Positions 5,706-30,035 of a stretch of 64,000 nt of DNA are shown here, piece after piece. The stretch covers positions 5,332,001-5,396,000 of the forward strand of contig NZ_CP042266.1 of NCBI RefSeq assembly GCF_007856155.1, written 5' to 3'. Under the pieces are notes generated by a model. That model did not search any database and was not told the DNA's origin. It worked only from the letters and a program-made list of their open reading frames with translations. Source of the DNA: Streptomyces qinzhouensis. GTDB lineage: Bacteria; Actinomycetota; Actinomycetes; Streptomycetales; Streptomycetaceae. Numbering within the stretch: the stretch's first letter is position 1; each line of letters opens with the position of its first letter. Position numbers and translations under genes: made by a program.

Positions 5706-5888
5706 TCAGTCCTCGTCGTCCTCGTCGTCGAGCCGCGCCAGCCAGGTCGCGAGCCGCTCCACCGGCACCTCGAAGTCGGGGTTGAGATCGACGAAGGTCC
5801 GCAACTGCTCGGCGAGCCACTCGAAGGTGACCTCCTCCTCGCCACGCCGCTTCTCCAGCTCCTCGATGCCGCGATCGGTGAAGTACAA
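5706..5888 (-). CDS. small conserved DUF6104-type protein
   Basis: A 60-residue acidic protein (MYFTDRGIEELEKRRGEEE at the start, DDEDDED tail). The sequence is the compact helical type annotated as DUF6104 in streptomycetes. It contains EWLAEQLRTFVDLNPDFEVPVERLATWL, and no catalytic motif is visible. The reading frame has strong third-position GC bias and ends in an Asp/Glu run coded by GAC/GAG repeats. A reverse-strand reading of the same bases gives only low-complexity Ser/Arg, supporting this strand. Function unknown; its proximity to the protease-ATPase cassette starting 150 bp away may be incidental. Confidence 0.7.
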   Translation of the reverse strand: MYFTDRGIEELEKRRGEEEVTFEWLAEQLRTFVDLNPDFEVPVERLATWLARLDDEDDED

Positions 5889-6035: not shown

Positions 6036-6725
6036 ATGAACGGACGCGTCCAGCGGATCGAACTGCCCGGAGGAGCCGTGGTGCACGCCCGGCTCACCGC
6101 TCCGGGCGGGGGATACGGCGACGACGACGAGGACGTCGGCTTCGCCGACACCGCCTCGGCCAAGGTCGAGCAGCTCCAGCAGCTGATCACGGACGTCGGC
6201 GGTTCCGTACTGCGGGCCGCGGCGGCCGCCGGACCCGACGAGGCCAGTGTCACCTTCGGGGTGGAGCTGACGGCGAAGTCCGGGGCGGCGCTGGCCGTAC
6301 TGGCGTCCGGCGAGGCCAAGACGTCCATCCAGGTCACCCTCGTATGGCGGCTCAAGGACCGGTCCGGGCAGGCGGGGGAGGCGGCGCGGATACCGGCCGG
6401 GCCCGGGCCCGGCCCCGTACCACCGGTTCCGCCGCCGCCCGTTTCCGTACCGCCCGCTGCCGTGCCGCAGGCTCCCGTACCGCCGGTTCCGGCGCCGAGC
6501 GGCGCCGTACCGCCGAATCCCGCGGCGGCCGGATCCGCGCCGGTGGCGGTCCCGCCGCCGCCCGCCCATCCGCCCGCCCCGGTCCGGCCCCCGGCCGCGA
6601 CTCCGGCGCCGCCGGTGGCTGCCGCCCCGGACCCGGAAACCCCCGCGGCCCCCCGTCGCGGTGCGGCGGCGGAAAGAGGTACGGGCGGTGACGGCGCGGG
6701 CGGCAGCGGGACGGCACCGGCATGA
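6036..6725 (+). CDS. trypsin-co-occurring domain (trypco1 / CU044_2847-type) protein
   Basis: A 229-residue protein. Residues 1-107 match the CU044_2847-type domain: RIELPGGAVVHARL, then a helix FADTASAKVEQLQQLI, then ASVTFGVELTAKSGAALAV and IQVTLVWRL. Known family context is close association with trypsin-like proteases, hence the name trypsin-co-occurring domain. Residues 115-229 are a Pro/Ala/Val-rich disordered tail. The stop overlaps the protease gene's ATG (ATGA), so the two are translationally coupled and probably made in fixed ratio. ATG at 6036 is preferred because homology begins there; the open frame upstream is not coding. A role as inhibitor, activator or substrate adaptor for the protease is inference. 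Confidence 0.85.
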   Translation: MNGRVQRIELPGGAVVHARLTAPGGGYGDDDEDVGFADTASAKVEQLQQLITDVGGSVLRAAAAAGPDEASVTFGVELTAKSGAALAVLASGEAKTSIQVTLVWRLKDRSGQAGEAARIPAGPGPGPVPPVPPPPVSVPPAAVPQAPVPPVPAPSGAVPPNPAAAGSAPVAVPPPPAHPPAPVRPPAATPAPPVAAAPDPETPAAPRRGAAAERGTGGDGAGGSGTAPA

Positions 6726-8719
6726 CCTCCGGCGAGTCCGACCCGGTCATCGACGCGCTGCTGCGCGCCGCGACCGTACGCATCGGGGGCGCGGACAGCA
6801 CCCCCCTGTGGGGCACCGGTTTCTTTGTGGCCCCGGGGTGGATCCTCACCTGTGCCCATGTCCTCGCCCCCCATCTGCGGGGCGATCCCACCCGGCCGAT
6901 ACGGATCGCGGGACCCGAGGTCAACGGTGGCGAACCCCTCGACGCCAGGCTCCACCGGTGGCTCGTCGACGGCGGCCCGCTGCCCGAACACAAGGTGCCG
7001 GTGGAACAGGACCTCGCCCTGCTGCGGCTGCTGGAGCCGGACGCCGAGCACGAGTGCGTCTGGCTCACGGACCGCACCGACCACCCCGGGGGCCCGGGTG
7101 TCGTCCAGGGCTACCGCCCCGGCGGCGAGCCCCACCCGGAACGCGCCGTGCCGTGGAAGGCGACCGCCCGGATCAACGGCTTCGACGACGCGTACGGCCT
7201 GCGGATCCGCCCCGAGGCCGAATTCCCGCGCGGCGGCTCGGGCTCCCCCGTACTCGACGCCCATACCGGCGCCGTCGTCGGCGTCCTCAAATCCCGGCGG
7301 GCCGGACGCGACGGCGGGATGGCCATCGCGGTGACCGCACTGCGCCGCTTCGGCGCCGACTACCACGAACTGACCGCGGCCCACGACCGCTGGCACGGCC
7401 AGTCACCCAAGATCACCGGCCATAACTGGGTCGAACGCCAGCACCGGCTGCCCGGGACCGGCGCCAGGACCGGCGGCGACGAATGGAGCCCCCGCGACCG
7501 GCGCGAAGCGCTCGCGCTGCTCTCCGCCGTCCATCCGCCGGACGGTATCCGGCCCGTCGTCGAACTGGCGAAGAAGGCCCGGGGCGGGGTCGCCGCCCCG
7601 CCCGGCCAACTGCTGCCGCACGCCTGGCGCGACGGACACGGACTGCTGTACGAGGCGGGGCAGCCGGCCGCCGCGATCGCCGCGCTGCACTACCTCCGGC
7701 TCGTGGCCGAGTACGAACGCGCCCGCGGCGGCGACCCCTCGGCGCTCGTCGACTGGGTGACACGCCGCCTCGACGACGTCCCCCGCATCGTCCACACCGT
7801 CGTCACCCAGGCCACTCTGCCGCCCGGTCTGCTGCGGCCGCCGGACCAAGGCGGAGACGCCGAACGGATCGTGCTGCGCCATCCGGCGCCCGGTGACGGC
7901 CGGGCCGTCGTCATCGTCGAGCTGGAACCCGTCGCCGACGCCCTGACACCCCGCTTCTACTGGCGGGTCCGGGTCGACGACGGCCTCGACGTCAACGAAC
8001 CGCTGCACGAGGTGCAGACCGGGGACGGTGTACCGCCGGACCGGCTCGTCGGCGAGCTGCGCGCGCCGCTCGCGGAGGTCTTCGCCTCGGTCGACGCGCC
8101 CGGTGCGCCGGTACCCCTCGAAGTCGCGCTCCCGGCCGACCACTTCGATACCGCCGTGCACCGCTGGCAGCTGACCGAGATGGCCAGACTGCACCATCCG
8201 GCGTATGTCGGGGTACGCCGGGCGGTGGTGCTGCGTGATATCGCCAGACGAGGTGAACCGGGCGGTGTCTGGTCGGCGCGCTGGCAGCGGCTGACCTCCG
8301 CCGAACCGCCGTTCAGCGCCTGCCGGGTGCCGCCGCCGCGACAGGTCCCCCGGGCCCGCCAGCTGGACGAGATGGGCCCGGCGGGCATCCCCGTCCTGTG
8401 CCGTCCCGCGGGCGGCGGTGTGGGGCGCCGGACGATCGGGATGGCACTGGAAGCGGGCCACGGCGTGGCCCTGTGGCAGACCGAGAACCACCCCGAGCAG
8501 GGGTGCGGCGATTTCTGCGAGGAGGTGCACCGGGGGGCGGCCGCCCTGCTGGCCGCCACCGGCGGCGCGGATGAACTCCCCGACCGGCTGCGGAGCATCA
8601 GGGACGACATCAGCGGGCGGCGCGACGGCGGCCACTGGGCGGAGGGCGTGGCACTGCTCTACGACGATCCGCGCAGACCCCTTCCGGCCGACGGCGACGG
8701 CCCGGTTGACTCGCCCTGA
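6722..8719 (+). CDS. trypsin-like serine protease fused to a VMAP-type C-terminal region
   Basis: A 665-residue protein. Residues 15-215 form a chymotrypsin-fold protease: TCAHV with His46, EQDLALLRL with Asp97, and GGSGSP with nucleophile Ser173; the triad is intact. There is no signal peptide, so it acts in the cytoplasm. Residues ~240-350 are a helical middle region, and ~380-650 resemble the vWA-MoxR-associated protein C-terminal domain (VIVELEPVADALTPRFYWRV, FDTAVHRWQLTEM, WQTENHPEQGC). In VMAP ternary systems this protein bridges a MoxR ATPase and a vWA partner and carries the variable effector, here a protease. The downstream MoxR and vWA-like genes support this. VMAP assignment is from memory of the family, not from a search. 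Confidence 0.8.
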   Translation: MTSGESDPVIDALLRAATVRIGGADSTPLWGTGFFVAPGWILTCAHVLAPHLRGDPTRPIRIAGPEVNGGEPLDARLHRWLVDGGPLPEHKVPVEQDLALLRLLEPDAEHECVWLTDRTDHPGGPGVVQGYRPGGEPHPERAVPWKATARINGFDDAYGLRIRPEAEFPRGGSGSPVLDAHTGAVVGVLKSRRAGRDGGMAIAVTALRRFGADYHELTAAHDRWHGQSPKITGHNWVERQHRLPGTGARTGGDEWSPRDRREALALLSAVHPPDGIRPVVELAKKARGGVAAPPGQLLPHAWRDGHGLLYEAGQPAAAIAALHYLRLVAEYERARGGDPSALVDWVTRRLDDVPRIVHTVVTQATLPPGLLRPPDQGGDAERIVLRHPAPGDGRAVVIVELEPVADALTPRFYWRVRVDDGLDVNEPLHEVQTGDGVPPDRLVGELRAPLAEVFASVDAPGAPVPLEVALPADHFDTAVHRWQLTEMARLHHPAYVGVRRAVVLRDIARRGEPGGVWSARWQRLTSAEPPFSACRVPPPRQVPRARQLDEMGPAGIPVLCRPAGGGVGRRTIGMALEAGHGVALWQTENHPEQGCGDFCEEVHRGAAALLAATGGADELPDRLRSIRDDISGRRDGGHWAEGVALLYDDPRRPLPADGDGPVDSP

Positions 8720-9128
8720 GCACCACGGGCCCGGGCCGCGCGGGTGGTCCACCAGGCCCTGGCGGCGGTGCGTGCGTTCGATGCGGCAACGGCGGCCCGG
8801 GACGGGGGGCGGACGGGGGCGTGACGAGGGGCGTGACGAGGGGCGGGAGACCGCCCGCAGGGCACCGGAAAAGACACCGGAACGACACCGGTCGGCACAG
8901 CGGGCACGACATCGGGAAAACCAGCGGATCTCCCTGCGGCGAAACGGAGAAACGGGCGCGAAACCGCCACCCCACGGGCGGAACCGCCGATCCCGGCACG
9001 GACGAGGAGCTTCCTCATGAGGAGACATCACACCGGGCACCGAACAGCAGTCATGAGACGGCGCCGGGCAGGGAATACACCCCACGTTGCCCGCCATCGG
9101 TCACCCGGCCGTTGAAAAGGAGCGAGCG
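8720..9128. other. gene-free 409-bp spacer inside the VMAP cassette
   Basis: No convincing gene. It holds a short direct repeat (GTGACGAGGGGC twice, 8821-8845) and a 12-bp palindrome TCCTCATGAGGA at 9012-9023 that overlaps a possible 32-codon Arg-rich ORF (9017-9115) with GAGGA in front. The MoxR gene has its own ribosome site AAGGAG at 9117-9122. The gap suggests MoxR and the vWA-like gene may have a separate promoter. Confidence 0.5.
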
Positions 9129-10142
9129 ATGGACGACGACTGGCTGATCTACCGGGGCGCCGGAGCGCCCGATCCCGACCGGATCGGGCACCTTCCGCCG
9201 CCCCCGCCCTGGCGCACCTTCTCCGGCGAGCCGCTGCCCGACCCCGCGCCGCCCATCGACAGCACGTCGACCCGGCGGCTCGGCGCCCGGATCGACGCGC
9301 CCCCGGCGTACGACGCCGAGGCACTCCAGCTGATCAACGCCGCCCTGTATCTGCGCCGCCCACTGCTCGTCACCGGGGAGCCGGGCTCGGGCAAGTCCAC
9401 GCTCGCGCACGCCATCGCGTACGAACTCGGCCTCGGCCGGGTGCTCCAGTGGCCCGTCGTCAGCCGGACCGAACTCCGCGACGGTCTCTACACCTACGAT
9501 GCCATCGGCCGCCTCCAGGACGCCCAGCTCGCCGAGCGGGAATCCCGCGCGCCCGACGACATCGGCGCCTATGTGAAGCTGGGCCCGCTCGGCACCGCCC
9601 TGCTCCCCACCGCACGCCCCCGGGTCCTGCTGATCGACGAACTCGACAAGAGCGATATCGACCTGCCGAACGATCTGCTGATCGTCGTCGAGGAGGGCGA
9701 GTTCACCCTGCCGGAGCTGGAGCGCACCGCCGACCGGCCGGGCCACCAGGAGGTCCGGGTCCTCACCGACGACGGCCGCCGGGTGCCCGTGCGCGGCGGC
9801 CGGGTGCGCTGCCACGCCTTTCCCTTCATCGTCATGACCAGCAACGGCGAACGGGACTTCCCGGCCCCGCTGCTGCGCCGCTGTATCCGGCTCCATCTCG
9901 ACCCGCCGCGCGACGAACGCCTCGCCGCGATGGTCCAGGCACACTTCGGCGCCGGTGCCGACGAACAGCAGCTGGATCTGATCGCCCGTTTCACCAGCGA
10001 GGACGGCGACGGCGAACTGCGCCCCACCGACCAGTTGCTGAACGCGATCTATCTGACGCAGCACGCGGGGCGCGCCGAACCCACCCGGCGCGAGGAGATC
10101 GCCGGGCTGCTGATGCGCCCGCTCGAGACCCGGCAGCGGTGA
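9129..10142 (+). CDS. MoxR-family AAA+ ATPase
   Basis: A 337-residue ATPase. The Walker A motif GEPGSGKS is at 83-90, Walker B VLLIDEL at 166-172, and sensor 1 lies in FIVMTSNGERDF. The arginine-finger region FPAPLLRRC follows, then a C-terminal lid. The family remodels or activates partner proteins carrying vWA domains; here the next gene, 4 bp away, encodes a vWA-like protein and the preceding one a VMAP-type protein, so the three together fit the ternary arrangement. The N-terminal 60 residues are Pro-rich and poorly conserved. The start at 9129 has an AAGGAG ribosome site 7 nt upstream. Confidence 0.9.
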   Translation: MDDDWLIYRGAGAPDPDRIGHLPPPPPWRTFSGEPLPDPAPPIDSTSTRRLGARIDAPPAYDAEALQLINAALYLRRPLLVTGEPGSGKSTLAHAIAYELGLGRVLQWPVVSRTELRDGLYTYDAIGRLQDAQLAERESRAPDDIGAYVKLGPLGTALLPTARPRVLLIDELDKSDIDLPNDLLIVVEEGEFTLPELERTADRPGHQEVRVLTDDGRRVPVRGGRVRCHAFPFIVMTSNGERDFPAPLLRRCIRLHLDPPRDERLAAMVQAHFGAGADEQQLDLIARFTSEDGDGELRPTDQLLNAIYLTQHAGRAEPTRREEIAGLLMRPLETRQR

Positions 10143-10146
10143 CGCC

Positions 10147-13100
10147 ATGCGCGAGAACGACCCACCGCGCCCCGACCCCCTTGGCCCGTGGCCCGAGCCG
10201 CTTCCGCGGTCCGAGCCGCTTGGCCCGCGCCCCGAGCCTCCTGGCCCGCGGTCCGAGCCGCCGATGGAGCCGGGCGGGCCCGGGGGGCCGCCGTCCGGTG
10301 CCGACCCGGCCCACGCGCCTCCCGGTGCCTCCGGGGAGGCCGGCGCGGCGGTGGTGCCGGGTACGGCTGCCGGGAGCGTGCCACCCCGAGCACCCCGAGC
10401 ACCCCGAGCGCCCGGCGGTAACGGCGGCGCCGCCCTCGCGGCCCTCGCCGCGCTGGTCGCCCGGCTGCGGGAGGCCGAGCTGAGGCCCGGTGCCGAGGAG
10501 CTGGCCGACGCGCTATGGCTGGCCCGCTACGTACCAGCGGCGGGCGACCGCACCACCGCGGACACCCCCGCCGCCCCCGGACCGGGCCCCGGCGGCACCC
10601 TCCGTACCCCCTCCGGATCCGCCGCCCGCCCACCCGCACCACTCGCCCCCGGCCGGGGCGACCCCGGTCCGGCACCCGGGCAGCGCTTCGGGCTGTACGG
10701 CCCCGCCCAGCCCGAAGCCGGCTACGGCACCGCCGCCGACCGCCGCATGCGTACGGTCCCCGTCCCCGCCCCCGTCGCCCTGCCCGACGCCCCCTCCCTC
10801 GAACGCTCCCTGCGGCCCCTCCAGCGCTACCGGCCGCCGGTCCGGGCCGTCCGCCGCGAACTGGACGAGATCGCCACCGCCGACCGGGCCGCCGACACCG
10901 GCATCATCGTCCCCGTCCTGACCGCCGTCCGCCGCCGGGAGGCCCGGCTCGCCCTGGTCATGGACCAGTCCAGCTCCAACGCGATCTGGTCCGGCGCCCT
11001 GGAAGAGCTCCGGCGGATCTGCGAACGCGCCGGCGCCTTCCGCGAGATCACGGTCCACCGCATCGCCGAGGGCGCCCCCCTCCCGTGCCACCTCGGGGAC
11101 CCCACCGGACAGCGGATCACCGTCGTCCTCAGCGACTGCGCCGGACCCCTGTGGCGCAGCGGCCGGATGCAGCGACTGCTGCACACCTGGGCCGCCACGG
11201 CACCCGTCTCCGTCGTCCAGCCGCTGCCGCAGCGCATGTGGGGCCGGACCCATCTGCCCGCCCGCCCCGGACTGCTGCGGCGCCGCGAAGGGCCCGCCGG
11301 ACGGCTCGAGTTCGTGCCCCGGGGCGCCGTCGAGGCCGCCGCGGGCATCCCCGTACCGGTCCTCGCCCCCCGCCGCTCCTCCTTCGACGCCTGGACCAAA
11401 CTGATCGCGGGCGCCACCGGCCAGTCCCTGAACGCGGCGGCCGCGACCGTCTTCGCCCGCCACCGGCCCACCGCCGCCCGGCCCCGCGCGGAGCGCCGCA
11501 TCGACCCCGCCGAGCGGGTCCGCGCCTTCCGGCGCACCGCCTCACCGGCCGCCGCCCAGCTCGCCGTCTATCTCTCCGCCGTCCCGCTGGTGCTACCCGT
11601 GATGCAGCTGGTCCAGCGCGCCATGCTGCACCGCAGCGGGCCCGACGTCCTCGCCGAGGTGCTCCTCAGCGGACTGCTGCGCCGTGACGACCGGTCCGCC
11701 GACACCGCCGACACCGCCGGGCCGGCGGACGGGCCCGCGTACGCCTTCCTGGACGGGGTACGGGACGAACTCCTCGGCCAGCTGGGCGCGGGCAGCGCCT
11801 CCCTCGTCCTCAAACAGTGCTCCGAATACGTCGAATCACGGTACGGACGGACGGTCCGCAACTTCCCCGCCATGGCCGCGGCCTTCCTCTCCGGGGCCGT
11901 CGACCCCGGGGACGAGGAAGCGGCGGCGGCCGCCGGAGCGCCCGGCGCGGAGAGCCGGAGACTCTGGGCCTTCGCCCAGGTCTCCACCCAGGTCCTGCGA
12001 CGGCTCGGCGGACCCTCGCCCACCGCCACCCCGCTCGGCGGCGCCGAGGCGGCCGCCGACGGACCCGGCGGGCTCGCCGCCCGGGCCCGGGCCTGCCTCG
12101 ACCACTTCGGCGAGCACGGCACCGTACCCGATCTGGACAGCGGGATCCGGCTCCTCGGCTCCGCCACCCAGGCCGAACGGCGGCCCGCCCGCCGCGCCGC
12201 GCTCTACGGCGAACTGGCCGAGGCGCTGCTGCGGCGCTGGTTCCTCCGGCCGGTGCCCGAAGACCTGCCCGAGGCCCTGGACGCCGCGCAGAACGCCGTC
12301 ACCGGCGCGCCCGCGGCCCATCTGACCCTGGCCGGACTGCTGGAGATCATGGCGGGAGAGGTGTCGGCGGGGCGGCTCAGCGCGAAGCTCCTGCCGGAAT
12401 GGGTGGCGGTACGGTCCGCAGCGGCGGCCGGGCCGCACGAAGCCGACGACCCCGAGCTCACCGCGACCGTCCTGCTGACCGCCGCCGACAACAGCCTCGC
12501 CGAGGTGACCGAAGGCCCCCAGCGCTGGGACACCGCCCTGCGGACGGCGGCGACCCCCGTCCGGGTCCGGATCCTGCGGCGGCTCGCCGTCACCGGGGCA
12601 CCCTACGGACCGGGCACGCCCGCCGACTGGTTCACCACCACCCTCGGCACCGCCGTCGCCGTCGTCGACGCCTATGTCGACGAGGTACGGGCCGGGCTCG
12701 GGGCCTGTCCCGAGACCTACCCGGAGCACGGGCCGGGACCGGCCACCGGTCATGCCGAGGCCCATCCCGCAGCCGCCCGGGCCGGCCGGGAGCGGGACAC
12801 CGCCCGTGAGGAGGCGCTGCTCCTGCGCGGCGGTCTCCTCCTCGAACTCGCCCGCCACCACCGCGGTGAGGGAGCCGTCGCCGCCGACCCGGCCGACCCG
12901 GCCGTGTCCCGGGCCTGTGCGGAGCGCGCCGAAAGCGATCTGCTCGCCGGGATCGACGCGACGGACGCCACCGCGGGCACGACCGGGGCCGGCGCGCGGG
13001 AGACCGTCCGGGTCTGGCTGGAGTACGCCGACGCCATCGCGTTCAGCAGCGAGCACCCCGACGACGACGCCAGACTCCGGATCCTCCAGGCCCTCGACCA

Positions 13101-13848
13101 GGCCCGCCGTACCGTCGACCGGGACGAGGCCGCCGAGGCGGACATCCTGCTGCGGATGGGCCGGCTGCTGGAGGAGCGGTACGCCGCGGGCGGTAGCTGG
13201 TCCCACCGGGACTCGGTGATCGCCGCCTGGACGGAGGCCCTGCCGCTGCTGCCCTGGCACGACCCCGGGCGGGCCGGACTGCTGACCTCCCTGGGCCGCA
13301 GGCTCGTCGAGCGCGGTATCGACAAGGACGCGCCCGGCGATGTCCGCACCGCGGTACGGCATCTGCGCGGGGCCGTCGACCAGACCGCGGTGGGCGACCC
13401 CGCGCTGCCCGAGCGGCGCGCGCTCCTCGGGCAGGCCTATCTGGAACGCTTCCGGGCCGAGGGCACGGTGGCCGATCTGCACGAGGCGGACTGGGCGCTG
13501 GGCGAGGCGGCCCGCACCACGGCGGACCCCGCTCTGGCGGCCACCGCGTGGTGGCGGCGGGCCGTCGCCGTCGCGCTGCTGGCCCGGCGTACGAACTCCC
13601 GGCCCCGTCTGCTGGACGCCGCCGCGCACTGCCGCCGGGCGGTACGGGGACCGCGCGAGGTGCTGGAGCGGCTGCTGGCCGCGGAGTGGGAGCGGGCCGC
13701 CCGGCTGACCCGCGCGGCGGGGCCGCGGCGCACACTGGAGGAGCACGAGGCGCTGCTGGAGATGCTGACGGAGGCGGACGCGGCGGAGGTGGGCGCGGCA
13801 ACGGCCTTCCTCCACAAGGAAATCACCCGCCTGACCGCCTCCCGCTGA
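10147..13848 (+). CDS. SAV_2336-type vWA-like protein with C-terminal helical repeats
   Basis: A 1,233-residue protein. Residues 1-100 are Pro/Gly-rich with repeated P-x-S-E-P/P-R-P-E-P units. Residues ~255-430 form the SAV_2336 N-terminal-related domain, a degenerate vWA fold: LALVMDQSSSN provides a DxSxS MIDAS motif (Asp273, Ser275, Ser277), followed by RITVVLSDCAGPLW. From ~650 on it is almost all amphipathic helices with TPR-like segments (LYGELAEALLRRWFL, ADILLRMGRLLEER). It follows the MoxR gene by 4 bp and is very likely co-translated; MoxR ATPases act on vWA partners. It probably senses or recruits through the TPR-like half. No membrane segments. Confidence 0.8.
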   Translation: MRENDPPRPDPLGPWPEPLPRSEPLGPRPEPPGPRSEPPMEPGGPGGPPSGADPAHAPPGASGEAGAAVVPGTAAGSVPPRAPRAPRAPGGNGGAALAALAALVARLREAELRPGAEELADALWLARYVPAAGDRTTADTPAAPGPGPGGTLRTPSGSAARPPAPLAPGRGDPGPAPGQRFGLYGPAQPEAGYGTAADRRMRTVPVPAPVALPDAPSLERSLRPLQRYRPPVRAVRRELDEIATADRAADTGIIVPVLTAVRRREARLALVMDQSSSNAIWSGALEELRRICERAGAFREITVHRIAEGAPLPCHLGDPTGQRITVVLSDCAGPLWRSGRMQRLLHTWAATAPVSVVQPLPQRMWGRTHLPARPGLLRRREGPAGRLEFVPRGAVEAAAGIPVPVLAPRRSSFDAWTKLIAGATGQSLNAAAATVFARHRPTAARPRAERRIDPAERVRAFRRTASPAAAQLAVYLSAVPLVLPVMQLVQRAMLHRSGPDVLAEVLLSGLLRRDDRSADTADTAGPADGPAYAFLDGVRDELLGQLGAGSASLVLKQCSEYVESRYGRTVRNFPAMAAAFLSGAVDPGDEEAAAAAGAPGAESRRLWAFAQVSTQVLRRLGGPSPTATPLGGAEAAADGPGGLAARARACLDHFGEHGTVPDLDSGIRLLGSATQAERRPARRAALYGELAEALLRRWFLRPVPEDLPEALDAAQNAVTGAPAAHLTLAGLLEIMAGEVSAGRLSAKLLPEWVAVRSAAAAGPHEADDPELTATVLLTAADNSLAEVTEGPQRWDTALRTAATPVRVRILRRLAVTGAPYGPGTPADWFTTTLGTAVAVVDAYVDEVRAGLGACPETYPEHGPGPATGHAEAHPAAARAGRERDTAREEALLLRGGLLLELARHHRGEGAVAADPADPAVSRACAERAESDLLAGIDATDATAGTTGAGARETVRVWLEYADAIAFSSEHPDDDARLRILQALDQARRTVDRDEAAEADILLRMGRLLEERYAAGGSWSHRDSVIAAWTEALPLLPWHDPGRAGLLTSLGRRLVERGIDKDAPGDVRTAVRHLRGAVDQTAVGDPALPERRALLGQAYLERFRAEGTVADLHEADWALGEAARTTADPALAATAWWRRAVAVALLARRTNSRPRLLDAAAHCRRAVRGPREVLERLLAAEWERAARLTRAAGPRRTLEEHEALLEMLTEADAAEVGAATAFLHKEITRLTASR

Positions 13849-13963
13849 GGGCCCACACCCCCAGCGCCCCGGGCCCTCGCGGGCCCCGGCCCCCACACCT
13901 CGGCACCCTGCGGGGCCTCGCCCCACGCGGCCGCGCCTCCGCACCTCGACGTCCCCCCGGGCC

Positions 13964-14347
13964 GCCCCCTACGCCTGGCGGCGTGGGGGGACCCCCAGCG
14001 CCGAGGTGCCTTCCTGCTGGCCACGGGGCTTGCCCTGCCTGGCGGGGGCAGTTTGCCGGCCGCGGACCGTGGACGCTTCTCGCGCAGTTCCGCCCCCTAC
14101 GCCTGGCGGCGTGGGGGGACCCCCAGCGCCGAGGTGCCTTCCTGCTGGCCACGGGGCTTGCCCTGCCTGGCGGGGGCAGTTTGCCGGCCGCGGACCGTGG
14201 ACGCTTCTCGCGCAGTTCCGCCCCCTACGCCTGGCGGCGTGGGGGGACCCCCAGCGCCGAGGTGGCTTCCCGCTGGCCACGGGGCTTGCCCTGCCTGGCG
14301 GGGGCAGTTTGCCGGCCGCGGACCGTGGACGCTTCTCGCGCAGTTCC
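13964..14347 (+). repeat. three tandem copies of a 128-bp repeat
   Basis: Units start at 13964, 14092 and 14220, exactly 128 bp apart, and are nearly identical. Each has a hairpin (CCCCTACGCC/GGCGTGGGG), then GGGACCCCCAGCGCC, a variable middle (TTGCCCTGCCTGGCGGGGGC), GGCCGCGGACCGTGGACGC and TCTCGCGCAGTTCC. They occupy most of the 773-bp gap between the vWA-like gene and kgd; no gene is supported there. The same unit recurs near 29.7 kb. Confidence 0.9.
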
Positions 14348-14621: not shown

Positions 14622-17600
14622 CTACGCGTCGAAGACGTCCGCGACCAGCTGCGTCTGCTCCGCCTGGTGCCGCTTCGCCGAGCCGACCGCCGGCGACGAA
14701 CCGTGCGGCCGCGAGATACGGCGCAGGCGCTCCCCGTGCGGGACGTCCGCGCCGACCGCCAGGTCGAGGTGGTCGATCAGGTTCAGCGCGATGAACGGCC
14801 ACGCACCCTGGTTCGCCGGCTCCTCCTGGGCCCACAGATACTTCTCGGCGTTCGGGAACTTGGCGATCTCGGCCTGGAGCTCCGCGCCCGGCAGCGGGTA
14901 GAGCCGTTCCAGGCGGATGATCGCGGTGTCCGTGACGCCCCGCTTCTTACGCTCCGCGTCGAGGTCGTAGTAGACCTTGCCGGAGGTGAAGACGACCTTG
15001 CGGACCGCGGCCGGGTCGACGGACTCGTCGCCGATGACCGGGCGGAAGCCGCCGTTGAGGAACTCTTCCGTCCTGGACTGCGCGGCCTTGAGCCGGAGCA
15101 TCGACTTCGGGGTGAAGACGATCAGCGGCTTGTGGTGCGGGTTGTGCACCTGCCACCGCAGCAGATGGAAGTAGTTCGACGGCAGCGTCGGCATGGCGAC
15201 CGTCATATTGTTCTGCGCGCACATCTGGAGGAAGCGCTCGGGGCGGGCGGACGAGTGGTCCGGGCCCTGGCCCTCGTAGCCGTGCGGCAGCAGCAGGGTG
15301 ACGCCGGAGGTCTGGCCCCACTTCTGTTCGGCGGAGGAGATGAACTCGTCGACGACGGTCTGCGCGCCGTTGACGAAGTCGCCGAACTGCGCCTCCCACA
15401 TGACCAGCGATTCGGGGCGGGCCAGGGAGTAGCCGTACTCGAAGCCCATCGCCGCGTACTCGCTGAGCAGGGAGTCGTAGACGTTGTACCGGGCCTGCTC
15501 GTCGGTCAGGTAGAGCAGCGGGGTGTAGTCCTCGTTGGTCTCCTGGTCGACCAGGACCGCGTGGCGCTGGCCGAAGGTGCCGCGCCGGGTGTCCTGGCCG
15601 GAGAGCCGGACCGGGGTGCCCTCCATCAGCAGGGAGCCGATGGCCAGCGTCTCGCCCATGCCCCAGTCGATCGTGCCGTCCTCGACGGAGGCGGCCCGGC
15701 GCTGGAGCTGCGGCAGCAGCCGCGGGTGGACGGTGATGTTGTCCGGGATGTTGACCTGGGACTCGGCGATCCGCTTGATGACCTCCTGGGACACCGCGGT
15801 GGTCACGGCGACCGGGAATTCGGCCTGCGGGTCCGGGACCAGGGTCGGCGCCGGGTGGCTGGTGGCCTCGCGGACCTCCGCGAACACCTTCTCCAGCTGG
15901 CCCTGGAAGTCCTGGAGCGCCTGCTCCGCCTCTTCGAGGGTGATGTCGCCGCGGCCGATCAGGGATTCGGTGTACAGCTTGCGCACCGAGCGCTTCTTGT
16001 CGATCAGCGCGACCATCTGCGGGTTGGTGAACTGCGGGTTGTCGCCCTCGTTGTGACCGCGGCGGCGGTAGCAGATGAGGTCGATCACGACGTCCTTGTT
16101 GAACGTCTGGCGGAACTCGAAGGCCAGCCGGGCGACCCGGACACAGGCCTCCGGGTCGTCGCCGTTGACGTGGAAGATCGGCGCTTCGATCATCCGCGCG
16201 ACGTCCGTCGCGTACATCGAGGAGCGCGAGGACTCCGGCGCGGCGGTGAAGCCGACCTGGTTGTTGATGACGACGTGGACCGTGCCGCCGGTGCGGTAGC
16301 CGCGCAGCTGCGACATGTTCAGCGTCTCGGCGACGACGCCCTGGCCCGCGAAGGCCGCGTCGCCGTGGAGGGCGACGGGCAGCACGGTGAAGTCGGTGCC
16401 GCCCTTGTTGATCACGTCCTGCTTGGCGCGGGCGACGCCTTCGAGGACCGGGTCGACGGCCTCCAGATGGGAGGGGTTGGCGACCAGGGAGACCTTGATC
16501 TGCTCGCCGTCGAGGCCGGTGAAGGTGCCCTCGGCGCCCAGGTGGTACTTGACGTCGCCGGAGCCGTGCATCGACTTCGGGTCGAGGTTGCCCTCGAACT
16601 CGCGGAAGATCTGGGCGTACGACTTGCCCACGATGTTGGCGAGGACGTTCAGCCGGCCGCGGTGGGCCATACCGATGACGACCTCGTCGAGGCGGGCCTC
16701 GGCGGCGGAGTCGATGACCGCGTCGAGCAGCGGGATGACGGACTCGCCGCCCTCCAGCGAGAACCGCTTCTGGCCGACGTACTTCGTCTGGAGGAAGGTC
16801 TCGAACGCCTCGGCCGCGTTCAGCCGGCGCAGGATCCGCAGCTGCTCCTCGCGCTCCGGCTTGGAGTGCGGGCGCTCGACCCGGTCCTGGATCCACTTGC
16901 GCTGCTTGGGGTCCTGGATGTGCATGAACTCGATGCCGGTGGTGCGGCAGTACGAGTCGCGGAGCACGCCGAGGACGTCGCGGAGCTTCATCAGGGACTT
17001 GCCGGCGAAGCCGCCGACGGCGAATTCGCGCTCCAGGTCCCAGAGGGTCAGCCCGTGCTCGGTGATGTCGAGGTCGGGGTGCTTGCGCTGGCGGTACTCC
17101 AGCGGGTCGGTGTCGGCCATGACATGGCCGCGGACCCGGTAGGAGTGAATCAGCTCGAAGACCCGGGCGGCCTTGGTGACGTCGTCGTCGTGGGAGGCGT
17201 CGATGTCCTTGAGCCAGCGGACCGGCTCGTAGGGGATCCGCAGGGCCTCGAAGATCTGGTCGTAGAAGCCTTCCTCGCCGAGGAGGAAGTTGGCCACGAC
17301 GCGCAGGAACTCGCCGGACGCCGCACCCTGGATGACCCGGTGGTCGTAGGTCGAGGTCAGCGTCATGACCTTGGAGATGCCCAGCTTGTTCAGGGTGTCC
17401 TGGGAGGTGCCCTGGAACTCGGCGGGGTAGTCCATGGAGCCGACGCCCATGATCACCGACTGGCCGGGCATCAGCCGGGGCACGGAGTGGACCGTGCCGA
17501 GGCCGCCGGGGTTGGTCAGCGAGACGGTGACGCCGGTGAAGTCGTCCATCGTCAGCTTGTTGCTGCGGGCCCGGCGGACGATGTCCTCGTACGCCTGCCA

Positions 17601-18452
17601 GAACTCGAAGAAGTTGAGGGTCTCGGCCTTCTTGATGGCCGCGACGACGAGCTGGCGGTCGCCGTTCGGCTTCACCAGGTCGATGGCGAGGCCGAAGTTG
17701 ACGTGCTCCGGCTTGACCAGGGTCGGCTTGCCGTCCTTCTCCGCGAACGACCAGTTCATCGACGGCATGGCCCGCAGGGCCTGCACCATGGCGAAGCCGA
17801 TGAGGTGGGTGAAGGAGACCTTCCCGCCCCGGGCGCGCTTCAGATGGTTGTTGATGACGATGCGGTTGTCGAAGAGCAGCTTCACCGGGACGGCGCGCAC
17901 GGATGTGGCCGTGGGCACCTCCAGGGAGGCGTTCATGTTCTTCGCGACGGCGGCGGAGGGGCCGCGCAGGGTGATCAGCTCGGGACCGCCGGAGGCGGCG
18001 GGCGCCGGAGCGGCGGGCGCCTTGGCGGCGGCCGGCTTCACCGCCGGAGCCGCCGGAGCCGCCGGAGCGGCAGGGGCTGCCGGAGCCGCGGGGGCTGCCG
18101 GGGCGGCGGGAGCCGCGACCGGAGCGGGCGCGGCGGCCGGCGCCGGAGCGGGCGCCGGGGCCGACTGCTGCGGGGCCGGAGCGGGGACGGTCGCCGGAGC
18201 GGCGGGCGCCTTGGCCGCGGCGGGGGCGGCGGCAGCGCCCTCGGCCGGAGCGTCGGCGGTGTTCTTCGCGCCCGGCTTGTAGTCGGCGAAGAAGTCCCAC
18301 CAGGCGCGGTCTACCGAATCGCGATCCTGGAGGTACTGCTGGTAGATCTCGTCGACAAGCCACTCATTGGCACCGAAGGCGGCGGCAGGGCCCTGGCCCG
18401 GCGTGCCTTGGTCGGCCGAGATATTGGCGTTACTGGGGGACTGAGACGACAC
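14622..18452 (-). CDS. kgd: multifunctional 2-oxoglutarate decarboxylase / dehydrogenase E1-E2 (Kgd)
   Basis: About 1,276 residues. Order: short E1 N-terminal helix ([25 protein letters not shown]), an Ala/Pro-rich linker (~60-160), an E2-like acyltransferase core ([30 protein letters not shown]), then the ThDP-dependent E1 ([23 protein letters not shown], and [17 protein letters not shown] for ThDP-Mg) and the transketolase-like C-terminus. It converts 2-oxoglutarate to succinyl-CoA or succinate semialdehyde in the TCA cycle, with dihydrolipoamide dehydrogenase encoded elsewhere. As in other actinobacteria there is no lipoyl domain in this chain. GTG at 18452 (SSQSPSN) is preferred to GTG at 18479 because GGAAGAGGG lies upstream of it and homologues begin there. 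Confidence 0.92.
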
Positions 18453-18786
18453 GGCGGCAACCGCCCTCTTCCGCTTCACAAGGTGATGGACAGCGGAAAT
18501 AAAGGCTACGCCTCCTGGGGCCCCAGATGCAGGCCGGATCGGCCATCGTCATGTAAGTCACATCGAAAGCCGGGTTTCATTGCAAGGAATGGCGGGAAAC
18601 AAGCACGGTTTGCCCCTGCCTGGGAGGTGACGTGCCCGACGGCGGTGCGGTCCGCCGGAGCGGCGGAATCTCCCTGCGTACCGGTCCGGCCGGGTCTCGG
18701 CCGGGGTCGGCGGCCCGATCGCGGGCCCGGCTGCCCGGAGTGTCTCTTGCCCGATACACGCACCACGGCCGCGGATGGTTCGAACC
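18453..18786. other. kgd upstream region, gene-free
   Basis: 334 bp between the kgd start and the end of the sensor-kinase gene. It is locally AT-richer (18480-18610), with TTGCAA on the minus strand near 18585 as a possible -35; no confident -10 was placed. It presumably holds the kgd promoter. No ORF here has convincing codon bias. Confidence 0.4.
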
Positions 18787-29490: not shown

Positions 29491-29654
29491 CCCCTCCGGG
29501 GCGGGTCCTGGCCGTGGCCGTGGCCTCGCCCGGCCGGGCGGGGGCCGTTTCCCGGGCCGCGGCTACCCTCGCGGGTGCGCCGCGCCCCGGGGCCCGCCCG
29601 GCCCGGCCCGGCGGGGGCCTTTGCCCGGCCGCCGACCGGATGTCGCGCACTTCC

Positions 29655-30035
29655 GCCCCCTACGCCTGGCTGCGTGGGGGACCCCCAGCGCCGCAGGTGG
29701 CTTCCCGCGGAGCACGGGACGCGCCCGGCCGGACGGGGGCGGTTTGCCGGCCGCGGACCGTGGACGCTTCTCGCGCAGTTCCGCCCCCTATGCCTTCGGC
29801 ATGGGGGGACCCCCAGCGCCCAGGTCTCTTCCCCCGGAGCACGGGACGCGCCCAGCCCCGCGAGGGCTGTGTCCCGGCCGCGGACCGTGGACGCTTCTCG
29901 CGCAGTTCCGCCCCCTATGCCTTCGGCATGGGGGGACCCCCAGCGCCCAGGCCCTCATCGCGGACAACGCCCAGCCCACCCGAGCCTGTCATCCGGCCGC
30001 GGACCGGATGTGGCTTGTCGCGCAGTTCCCCGCGC
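29655..30035 (+). repeat. second array of the ~128-bp repeat
   Basis: Units begin at 29655, 29783 and 29910 (periods 128 and 127) with the same modules as the array at 13964-14347 but diverged middles (CCTGGCTGCG versus CTTCGGCATG hairpin arms). They fill most of the 763-bp gap between lon and the pentapeptide-repeat gene; no gene is supported there. Confidence 0.85.

Follow-up and report, generated by a model that had tools for sequence, protein, structure and literature searches.

A cassette of four plus-strand genes in the chromosome of Streptomyces qinzhouensis belongs, as judged from its sequence, to the trypsin/Trypco1 subtype of the VMAP ternary systems, a group of conflict systems already predicted computationally. 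It was studied within a stretch of 64,000 nucleotides (the window; contig NZ_CP042266.1, positions 5,332,001 to 5,396,000), whose coordinates are used throughout; the source genome (G000) forms a single 8.15-Mb contig. The cassette occupies a conserved address between a DUF6104 gene and sucA/kgd, which we have not found in print. The reading that we put forward is that of a minimal VMAP ternary system at this address, whose protease would act as the executioner and whose site would have gone through loss and exchange. We hold it tentatively, at slightly under an even chance of being right as a whole.

VMAP ternary systems were defined as predicted conflict systems by Kaur et al. (2020, PMC7159879), with the genes for VMAP, MoxR and vWA in this order from 5' to 3' and the motifs WxhapG and PsWRxa at the N-terminus of MoxR. 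In the sections of that paper devoted to them, trypsin-type VMAPs frequently, though not invariably, have a neighbouring Trypco1 or Trypco2. The systems were extended elsewhere (PMC8195603), and vWA-MoxR-VMAP domains have been linked to type III CRISPR loci (PMC10910872). A first-pass annotation, made from the letters alone, had placed a Trypco1 protein, a protease fused to VMAP-C, a MoxR ATPase and a SAV_2336-type vWA protein on the plus strand at 6036-13848; all four genes were found there, and profile searches match each of them (Table 1). The Trypco1 protein also matches the NCBIfam family CU044_2847 (E 6.7e-19), and its start at 6036 coincides with the start-codon position in five of five aligned relatives. 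In the second protein, a Pfam profile search located Trypsin_2 (PF13365) at amino acids 31-188 (E 1.4e-13) and VMAP-C (PF20028) at 411-650 (E 6.7e-38; 131.3 bits against a cut-off of 27), inside the region 380-650 for which this match had been predicted. The MoxR motifs are present as WLIYRG and PPWRTF. The NCBIfam profile SAV_2336_NTERM covers amino acids 116-568 of the vWA protein, that is the vWA core and a helical flank (E 1.4e-121), and the translation carries DQSSS and LSDC. For the vWA extension motif [D/E]xxx[D/E]xxxa, EELADALW fits by eye, but with the aromatic residue one position early. Thus VMAP-C, the gene order, the MoxR motifs and the metal-site residues all bear out the earlier assignment to a VMAP ternary system with a trypsin/Trypco1 pair.

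Table 1. Features of the cassette and its flanks in the window
Feature	Coordinates	Strand	Basis and remarks
DUF6104 gene	5706..5888	-	PF19599 E 3.3e-36; left address marker, divergent from cassette
Trypco1 protein, 229 aa, long Pro/Ala-rich tail	6036..6725	+	PF19493 E 1.3e-15
Trypsin-like protease fused to VMAP-C (VMAP component), 665 aa	6722..8719	+	PF13365, PF20028
VMAP-type MoxR AAA+ ATPase, 337 aa	9129..10142	+	AAA, AAA_5 above cut-offs
vWA component, SAV_2336 type, 1233 aa	10147..13848	+	NF041121, 406.7 bits, cut-off 200
vWA protein C-terminal region, aa 571-1233	11857..13845	+	Pfam-negative; all-helical TPR-like model
sucA/kgd (2-oxoglutarate dehydrogenase E1/E2-type protein), right address marker	14622..18479	-	E1_dh, 2-oxoacid_dh, Transket_pyr, OxoGdeHyase_C

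The residues expected to matter are strongly conserved. All 51 aligned loci, including three that lie outside the sucA address, have the catalytic triad H46, D97 and S173; W5, G10, P26, W28, R29, F31 and the Walker residues of MoxR are likewise invariant (51/51). The second metal-site aspartate of the vWA protein is kept in all 51 loci and the first in at least 90%. Co-conservation of the four genes, also anticipated by the first-pass annotation, was found in the same order in 26 of the 26 loci examined first, which were selected for similarity (the 20 best-matching regions of the genus and six others; in L054, one of the 26, the contig ends inside the vWA gene). The Trypco1 stop and the VMAP start overlap by four bases (ATGA), and 409 bp separate VMAP from MoxR. 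Such a start/stop overlap recurs in 45 of 49 Trypco1-bearing loci (G036 counted twice), suggesting coupled translation. The source genome has a single VMAP-C match and a single match to the vWA protein. The six named loci, close relatives at 54-74% identity, are all from Streptomyces, and the closest VMAP among the matches listed is that of S. tsukubensis (94%). Besides the triad, the VMAP protein keeps H221, D222, H225, C560 and C599 in 51/51 loci, and these residues could conceivably form a metal site or an interface. Predicting the protease specificity from the residue six positions before the serine was dropped, E167 being kept in just 25 of 51 loci.

The block had also been described as lying among housekeeping genes, which is right, and its position beside sucA/kgd is conserved besides. 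Among 101 genomes of the genus, 100 have a match to the C-terminal part of sucA and at least 84 one to VMAP-C. The site was read in 92 genomes (G008, G024, G028, G032, G050, G062, G073, G081 and G099 were skipped for short contigs), and the DUF6104 marker is present in 88 to 92 of the site stretches. In 46 of the 92 genomes, VMAP-C is no farther than 25 kb from sucA, which accounts for 49 of the 150 matches listed; among these 150, the next nearest on the same contigs is at 87.5 kb (45 farther, 56 on other contigs). Another 31/92 genomes have no core gene and a DUF6104 gene at most 700 bp from sucA, a count that includes G002 (173 bp gap), added by hand after a filter had dropped it, and the gap measures 0.7-5 kb without core genes in 10/92. 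Of the remaining five, three hold MoxR and vWA with no VMAP match (G010), vWA with FxSxx genes (G070) or FxSxx genes only (G014); neither DUF6104 nor core genes were found in G018, and the cassette stands beside DUF6104 in G001, an assembly with no sucA match. In G097, the cassette is on the far side of DUF6104. In a family sample, P0002 was matched at E 1e-20 or better in 20 of 61 genomes and 7 of 17 genera. Four of these 20 belong to the genus set; the other 16 were checked, and 15 are within 20 kb of sucA, with the two on different contigs in G116. Outside Streptomyces, 13 of 14 systems from five other genera lie within 20 kb of sucA, distance alone having been checked.

This proximity, in 46 genomes of the genus and 13 of the 14 systems from other genera, could mean that the address reflects function, the system guarding 2-oxoglutarate dehydrogenase (sucA/kgd) or its regulation. 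We consider this very improbable: the 31 empty sites retain sucA without the cassette, systems stand elsewhere in G030 and G076, and the vWA gene and sucA run toward each other, separated in relatives by other genes that span up to about 9 to 14 kb. Several further observations concern the site itself. Between the vWA gene and sucA, the window carries three tandem 128-bp units with 99% matches (13962-14347); diverged copies occur at 29653-30027, and the first 41 bases of the unit recur genome-wide, with 57 matches in all. The DUF6104 gene is inverted relative to its usual orientation in nine genomes (L037, L038, L060, L072, L074, L076, L084, L118, L124), and L060 (G003) is an empty site. At the address in G007 (L064:413-3730), a Trypco1-like open reading frame (ORF) and a trypsin-NB-ARC-TPR gene are oriented the other way and may represent a further conflict system at this site.

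To follow the history of the site, occupancy was mapped onto a sucA tree with 76 rows. The site counts as occupied in 48 of them, among which is G010, and as empty in 28, among which is G061 with a gap of 1.2 kb. Occupancy then requires 16 changes, or at least 13 if judged by starred branches, while label shuffles average 23.0 changes and none of 500 was as low for the occupied label. Occupancy is therefore clustered but often changed, and the count does not give the direction. A core tree was built from MoxR and vWA of the 51 loci with three proteins readable at enough length in one frame (52 minus the G036 duplicate). Three of the four core clades tested conflict with the sucA tree: that of G017, G068 and G079 (approximately unbiased (AU) test, p 0.0003), a ten-member clade (p 1.7e-5) and a seven-member clade (p 4.4e-7). 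For the minimal clade, in which NBC_01481 was included, the test shows no conflict (p 0.86), and the version in the window may thus have been inherited vertically in its group. Remnants in otherwise empty sites suggest loss in these genomes: G090 keeps an FxSxx_TPR piece in cassette orientation within its gap of 517 bp (E 3.6e-13), and G012, G046, G074 and G083 keep partial FxsB/HExxH-type ORFs of the same orientation (E about 1e-13). Trypco1-like matches in G007 and G067 have the opposite orientation. A reversed control gave one match (E 0.0033); two empty sites gave faint matches close to that value, G082 at E 0.0045 and G009 at E 0.0014, and these were not used.

These results suggest repeated loss and exchange of divergent versions at one old address. 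Carried further, the gap between DUF6104 and sucA might be a dedicated immune locus of the Streptomycetaceae, in which divergent VMAP "alleles" (minimal, FxSxx-armed, or with NB-ARC and a degenerate protease joined to vWA) would be lost, or swapped among species through the conserved flanks, as in eukaryotic allelic immune loci; in the minimal allele of the window, the protease itself would have to be the executioner. We see this as possible, though we would not yet lean toward it.

Most relatives keep company that the window cassette lacks. Of the 43 genomes of the genus with VMAP, MoxR and vWA beside sucA, 37 also have FxsB/HExxH-type and FxSxx_TPR-type matches, examples being an FxsB family member (416.6 bits), an HExxH hydroxylase (142.7 bits) and TIR-NB-ARC-TPR proteins (NF040586; 741.6 and 730.6 bits). 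No FxsB or FxsT profile match lies beside the window cassette, where the vWA gene is followed by sucA. This minimal form, without an adjoining FxSxx module, is shared by G094, S. jumonjinensis, S. albipurpureus, S. inusitatus and NBC_01481. The missing module, together with the leftovers of lost systems at the address in other genomes, could be taken to mean that the window holds a decaying or non-functional remnant; this is the least probable of the explanations considered, since all four frames are open, the triad and Walker residues are intact and the same form recurs in five other genomes. A separate FxSxx-type locus does occur in the source genome about 4 Mb from the window (L138:4824-13222; C1 1.327-1.335 Mb), with FxSxx_TPR at 1055 bits and FxsB at 588 bits. 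Its acting in trans was set aside, as FxsB is found in six of six minimal-form genomes but also in 22 of 29 overall and is therefore unspecific. A strict search for peptides ending in FxSxx returned three loci only; a looser ORF list gave FxSxx-like, YEDAP-like and other tails.

A third form has additional domains on the vWA protein. Those of G068 and G079 carry NB-ARC-like and VMAP-C parts along with a second trypsin domain, and in G079 a TIR domain as well; in the vWA protein of G017, only an FxSxx_TPR-type NTPase part exceeds the library threshold. By local alignment, the fused trypsins of all three have lost the serine and have Glu for Asp, and the histidine is kept in G068 only, while each genome also encodes a trypsin-VMAP with an intact triad. 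The vWA genes at L043:8603-13102 and L044:6763-10893 encode NB-ARC-like, degenerate trypsin and VMAP-C parts, a duplicate of the third component of the system with the catalytic serine gone. According to the relevant part of PMC7159879, trypsin on vWA never or rarely accompanies trypsin on the cognate VMAP, so G017, G068 and G079 look like exceptions. The Trypco1 partner varies too, being detectable in 49 of 56 VMAP loci. Six of the seven loci in which it was undetected form one clade with intact triads, with 153-178 bp from DUF6104 to the first aligned VMAP position. Trypco1 is therefore probably not an obligate inhibitor, a role that we disfavour although a diverged partner may have fallen below detection, especially in G084 (gap 368 bp).

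Structure models were examined for both large proteins. The VMAP model (20 sequences, mean pLDDT 83.7, pTM 0.66) gives the protease domain an HtrA/MarP fold, with Rv3671c (3lt3) as the best Foldseek match (E 2e-9) and HtrA1, DegP and DegS ranking close after it. Every one of the 50 Foldseek matches listed covers the protease domain, none VMAP-C, and a sequence comparison at E up to 1 matched neither the VMAP nor the vWA protein to any solved chain. The C-terminal 663 amino acids of the vWA protein (571-1233) had no Pfam match at E up to 1; their 47 database relatives are mostly named SAV_2336, and two weak ones bear CHAT and TPR domains. The model of this region (28 sequences, pLDDT 86.0, pTM 0.77) is all helical, with Foldseek matches mainly to TPR and other helical-repeat proteins, such as OGT (1w3b; E 4.6e-6, TM-score 0.49 by target) and Pins (4a1s; E 1.4e-4, TM-score 0.63 by target and 0.37 by query). 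The vWA C-terminus, where VMAP ternary systems carry variable effector domains, thus looks like a TPR-like superhelix, a scaffold with no recognised effector enzyme.

The ATPase and the protease are the only recognisable enzymes of the window cassette. The protease is its only recognisable candidate executioner, because this form comes without the FxSxx/TIR-NB-ARC-TPR module of most relatives. We infer from sequence an anti-phage function and the following mechanism. The TPR superhelix of the vWA protein would detect an invader or a damage cue, and its metal site would bind a partner peptide that holds the complex off. ATP-driven remodelling by MoxR would then activate or free the protease, which would cleave cellular targets so that the affected hyphal compartment is stopped or killed, with Trypco1 as a usual but probably dispensable partner. 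The first-pass annotation had similarly proposed the protease as an effector checked by MoxR and the vWA protein. This matches one of two published models, that of PMC10907252, in whose account of a MoxR-vWA system the vWA target senses and the VMAP peptidase is the effector, and it would fit the minimal cassette best. With its scaffold-like vWA C-terminus and retained triad, the minimal form would favour this order. The degenerate trypsins on vWA in G017, G068 and G079, coexisting with intact trypsin-VMAPs, were also counted for a protease executioner.

The other published order, set out in the portion of Kaur et al. (PMC7159879) on these systems, has VMAP as the sensor and the protease freeing effectors from the vWA protein. 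Here the VMAP middle would sense, MoxR and vWA would set the threshold, trypsin would cut the vWA protein, and the freed TPR superhelix would bind or assemble, making the protease an activator. Across 48 loci at the site, identity is 41.3% for trypsin, 31.7% for the VMAP middle and 35.3% for VMAP-C; the middle has the lowest value overall and also within two of the four clades, in keeping with its role as a sensor in that paper. Effector variety on or next to vWA, as TIR-NB-ARC or as separate FxSxx/TIR-NB-ARC-TPR genes, also agrees with this order. In the minimal form, however, cleavage would release a scaffold in which no enzyme is recognisable. The VMAP middle is moreover not the least conserved part of the minimal clade: mean pairwise identity among the six minimal-form genomes (L054, cut inside vWA, was left out) is 74.9% for the Trypco1 domain, 76.7% for trypsin, 78.3% for the VMAP middle, 75.5% for VMAP-C, 87.8% for MoxR, 77.9% for vWA amino acids 200-570 and 66.8% for the vWA C-terminus. 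On balance, we find an activating protease rather unlikely, though a serious contender. In each of the four clades compared, the vWA C-terminus is less conserved than the core of the protein, and this faster divergence might fit a sensor, as the order with the protease as executioner would have it.

Several points count against our proposal, among them the low conservation of the VMAP middle across the 48 loci. The neighbouring PadR (57.6-77.5% identity) and DUF4097 (63.5-68.4%) diverge as fast as the cassette, while identity to the window is 94.7-96.9% for sucA and 85.4-90.1% for the next kinase gene. Rapid change alone is therefore no proof of conflict, the cassette being fast relative to sucA but not to every neighbour. 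The TPR matches of the vWA C-terminus are modest over its full length, 0.37 being the best TM-score by query among the 50 matches listed. Systems also occur off the address, in G030 and G076, whose sucA sites are empty, and in G080, with one at the site and one elsewhere. Finally, if sucA itself has recombined, or if old duplicates were lost differentially, tree conflict could arise in that way too.

A role outside conflict must also be weighed, in which a MoxR-vWA chaperone with a linked protease would serve protein quality control, cofactor insertion or Streptomyces development. Published MoxR-vWA pairs do such work (NorQ/NorD and RavA-ViaA; PMC7159879, section 8), and the fixed address beside a metabolic gene would suit it. 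So would the record of matches, with no phage record and only three plasmid records, none covering 80% of the protein; a mobile-element origin was set aside on the same counts. Against such a role, 31 of 92 genomes lack the cassette at the address, which makes it dispensable, many relatives have TIR-NB-ARC partners, and divergent versions appear to have been exchanged. We judge it improbable.

What is new beyond print, as far as we found, is the fixed address with apparent exchange. The open-licence papers listed by the searches yielded no mention of a DUF6104-sucA address and no experimental test of any VMAP system. In that literature, the terms DUF6104 and SAV_2336 do not occur, and trypsin-co-occurring or VMAP-C stands in Kaur et al. 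(PMC7159879) alone. Term look-ups returned no VMAP, MoxR or trypsin in a study on antiviral genes of Actinobacteria (PMC10482375), and no DUF6104, VMAP, MoxR, SAV_2336 or FxSxx in one on Streptomyces synteny (PMC13118837). VMAP systems are widespread in multicellular bacteria. The form described here has four genes in single copy at a fixed site, where many relatives naturally lack it, and so offers a simple cassette to delete or transplant. Because it has no other recognisable effector enzyme, it could decide between the protease as executioner and as activator. If exchange at one address is upheld, the core chromosome would hold a bacterial conflict locus whose versions turn over much as alleles do; if it is truly an immune locus, the minimal allele of the window would be a natural test between the two published models.

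Among known systems, the chaperone pairs NorQ/NorD and RavA-ViaA share a MoxR ATPase and a vWA protein with the cassette but have no VMAP, no protease and housekeeping roles. MarP (Rv3671c) and the HtrA proteases have the same protease fold, whereas the window protease is fused to VMAP-C and reaches 22.5 bits with the MarP model against a cut-off of 250. The MoxR protein is weakly similar to components of MADS defence (MadB, E 4.8e-13; mad8, E 1.7e-6); MADS and other PADLOC systems were rejected on such weak matches (MadB 48.9 bits, cut-off 475), as was the beta-propeller MoxR ternary system (bpMoxR PF20030, 14.2 bits, cut-off 27). The system of PMC10907252 has the same three core parts and a trypsin-type VMAP. 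Its vWA protein, as presented there, bears a C-type lectin domain diversified by a diversity-generating retroelement (DGR), in contrast to the TPR-like region in the window, where no DGR turned up, although no search was aimed at one. The FxSxx-COOH-associated subtype (TIGR04269, TIGR04267, NF040586) has a TPR-bearing vWA protein without a fused AP-ATPase (PMC7159879, section 24), as does the window cassette, and in relatives it occupies the same address; the cassette differs in having no adjoining peptide, FxsB/HExxH enzyme or TIR-NB-ARC-TPR gene. From the trypsin/Trypco1 subtype, it departs in a library-negative, TPR-like vWA C-terminus, in having no other effector domain and in its fixed address, which the sections on these systems in Kaur et al. 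(PMC7159879) leave unmentioned. With that subtype, it shares the components, the order VMAP-MoxR-vWA, the MoxR motifs, and the trypsin domain on VMAP with an adjacent Trypco1.

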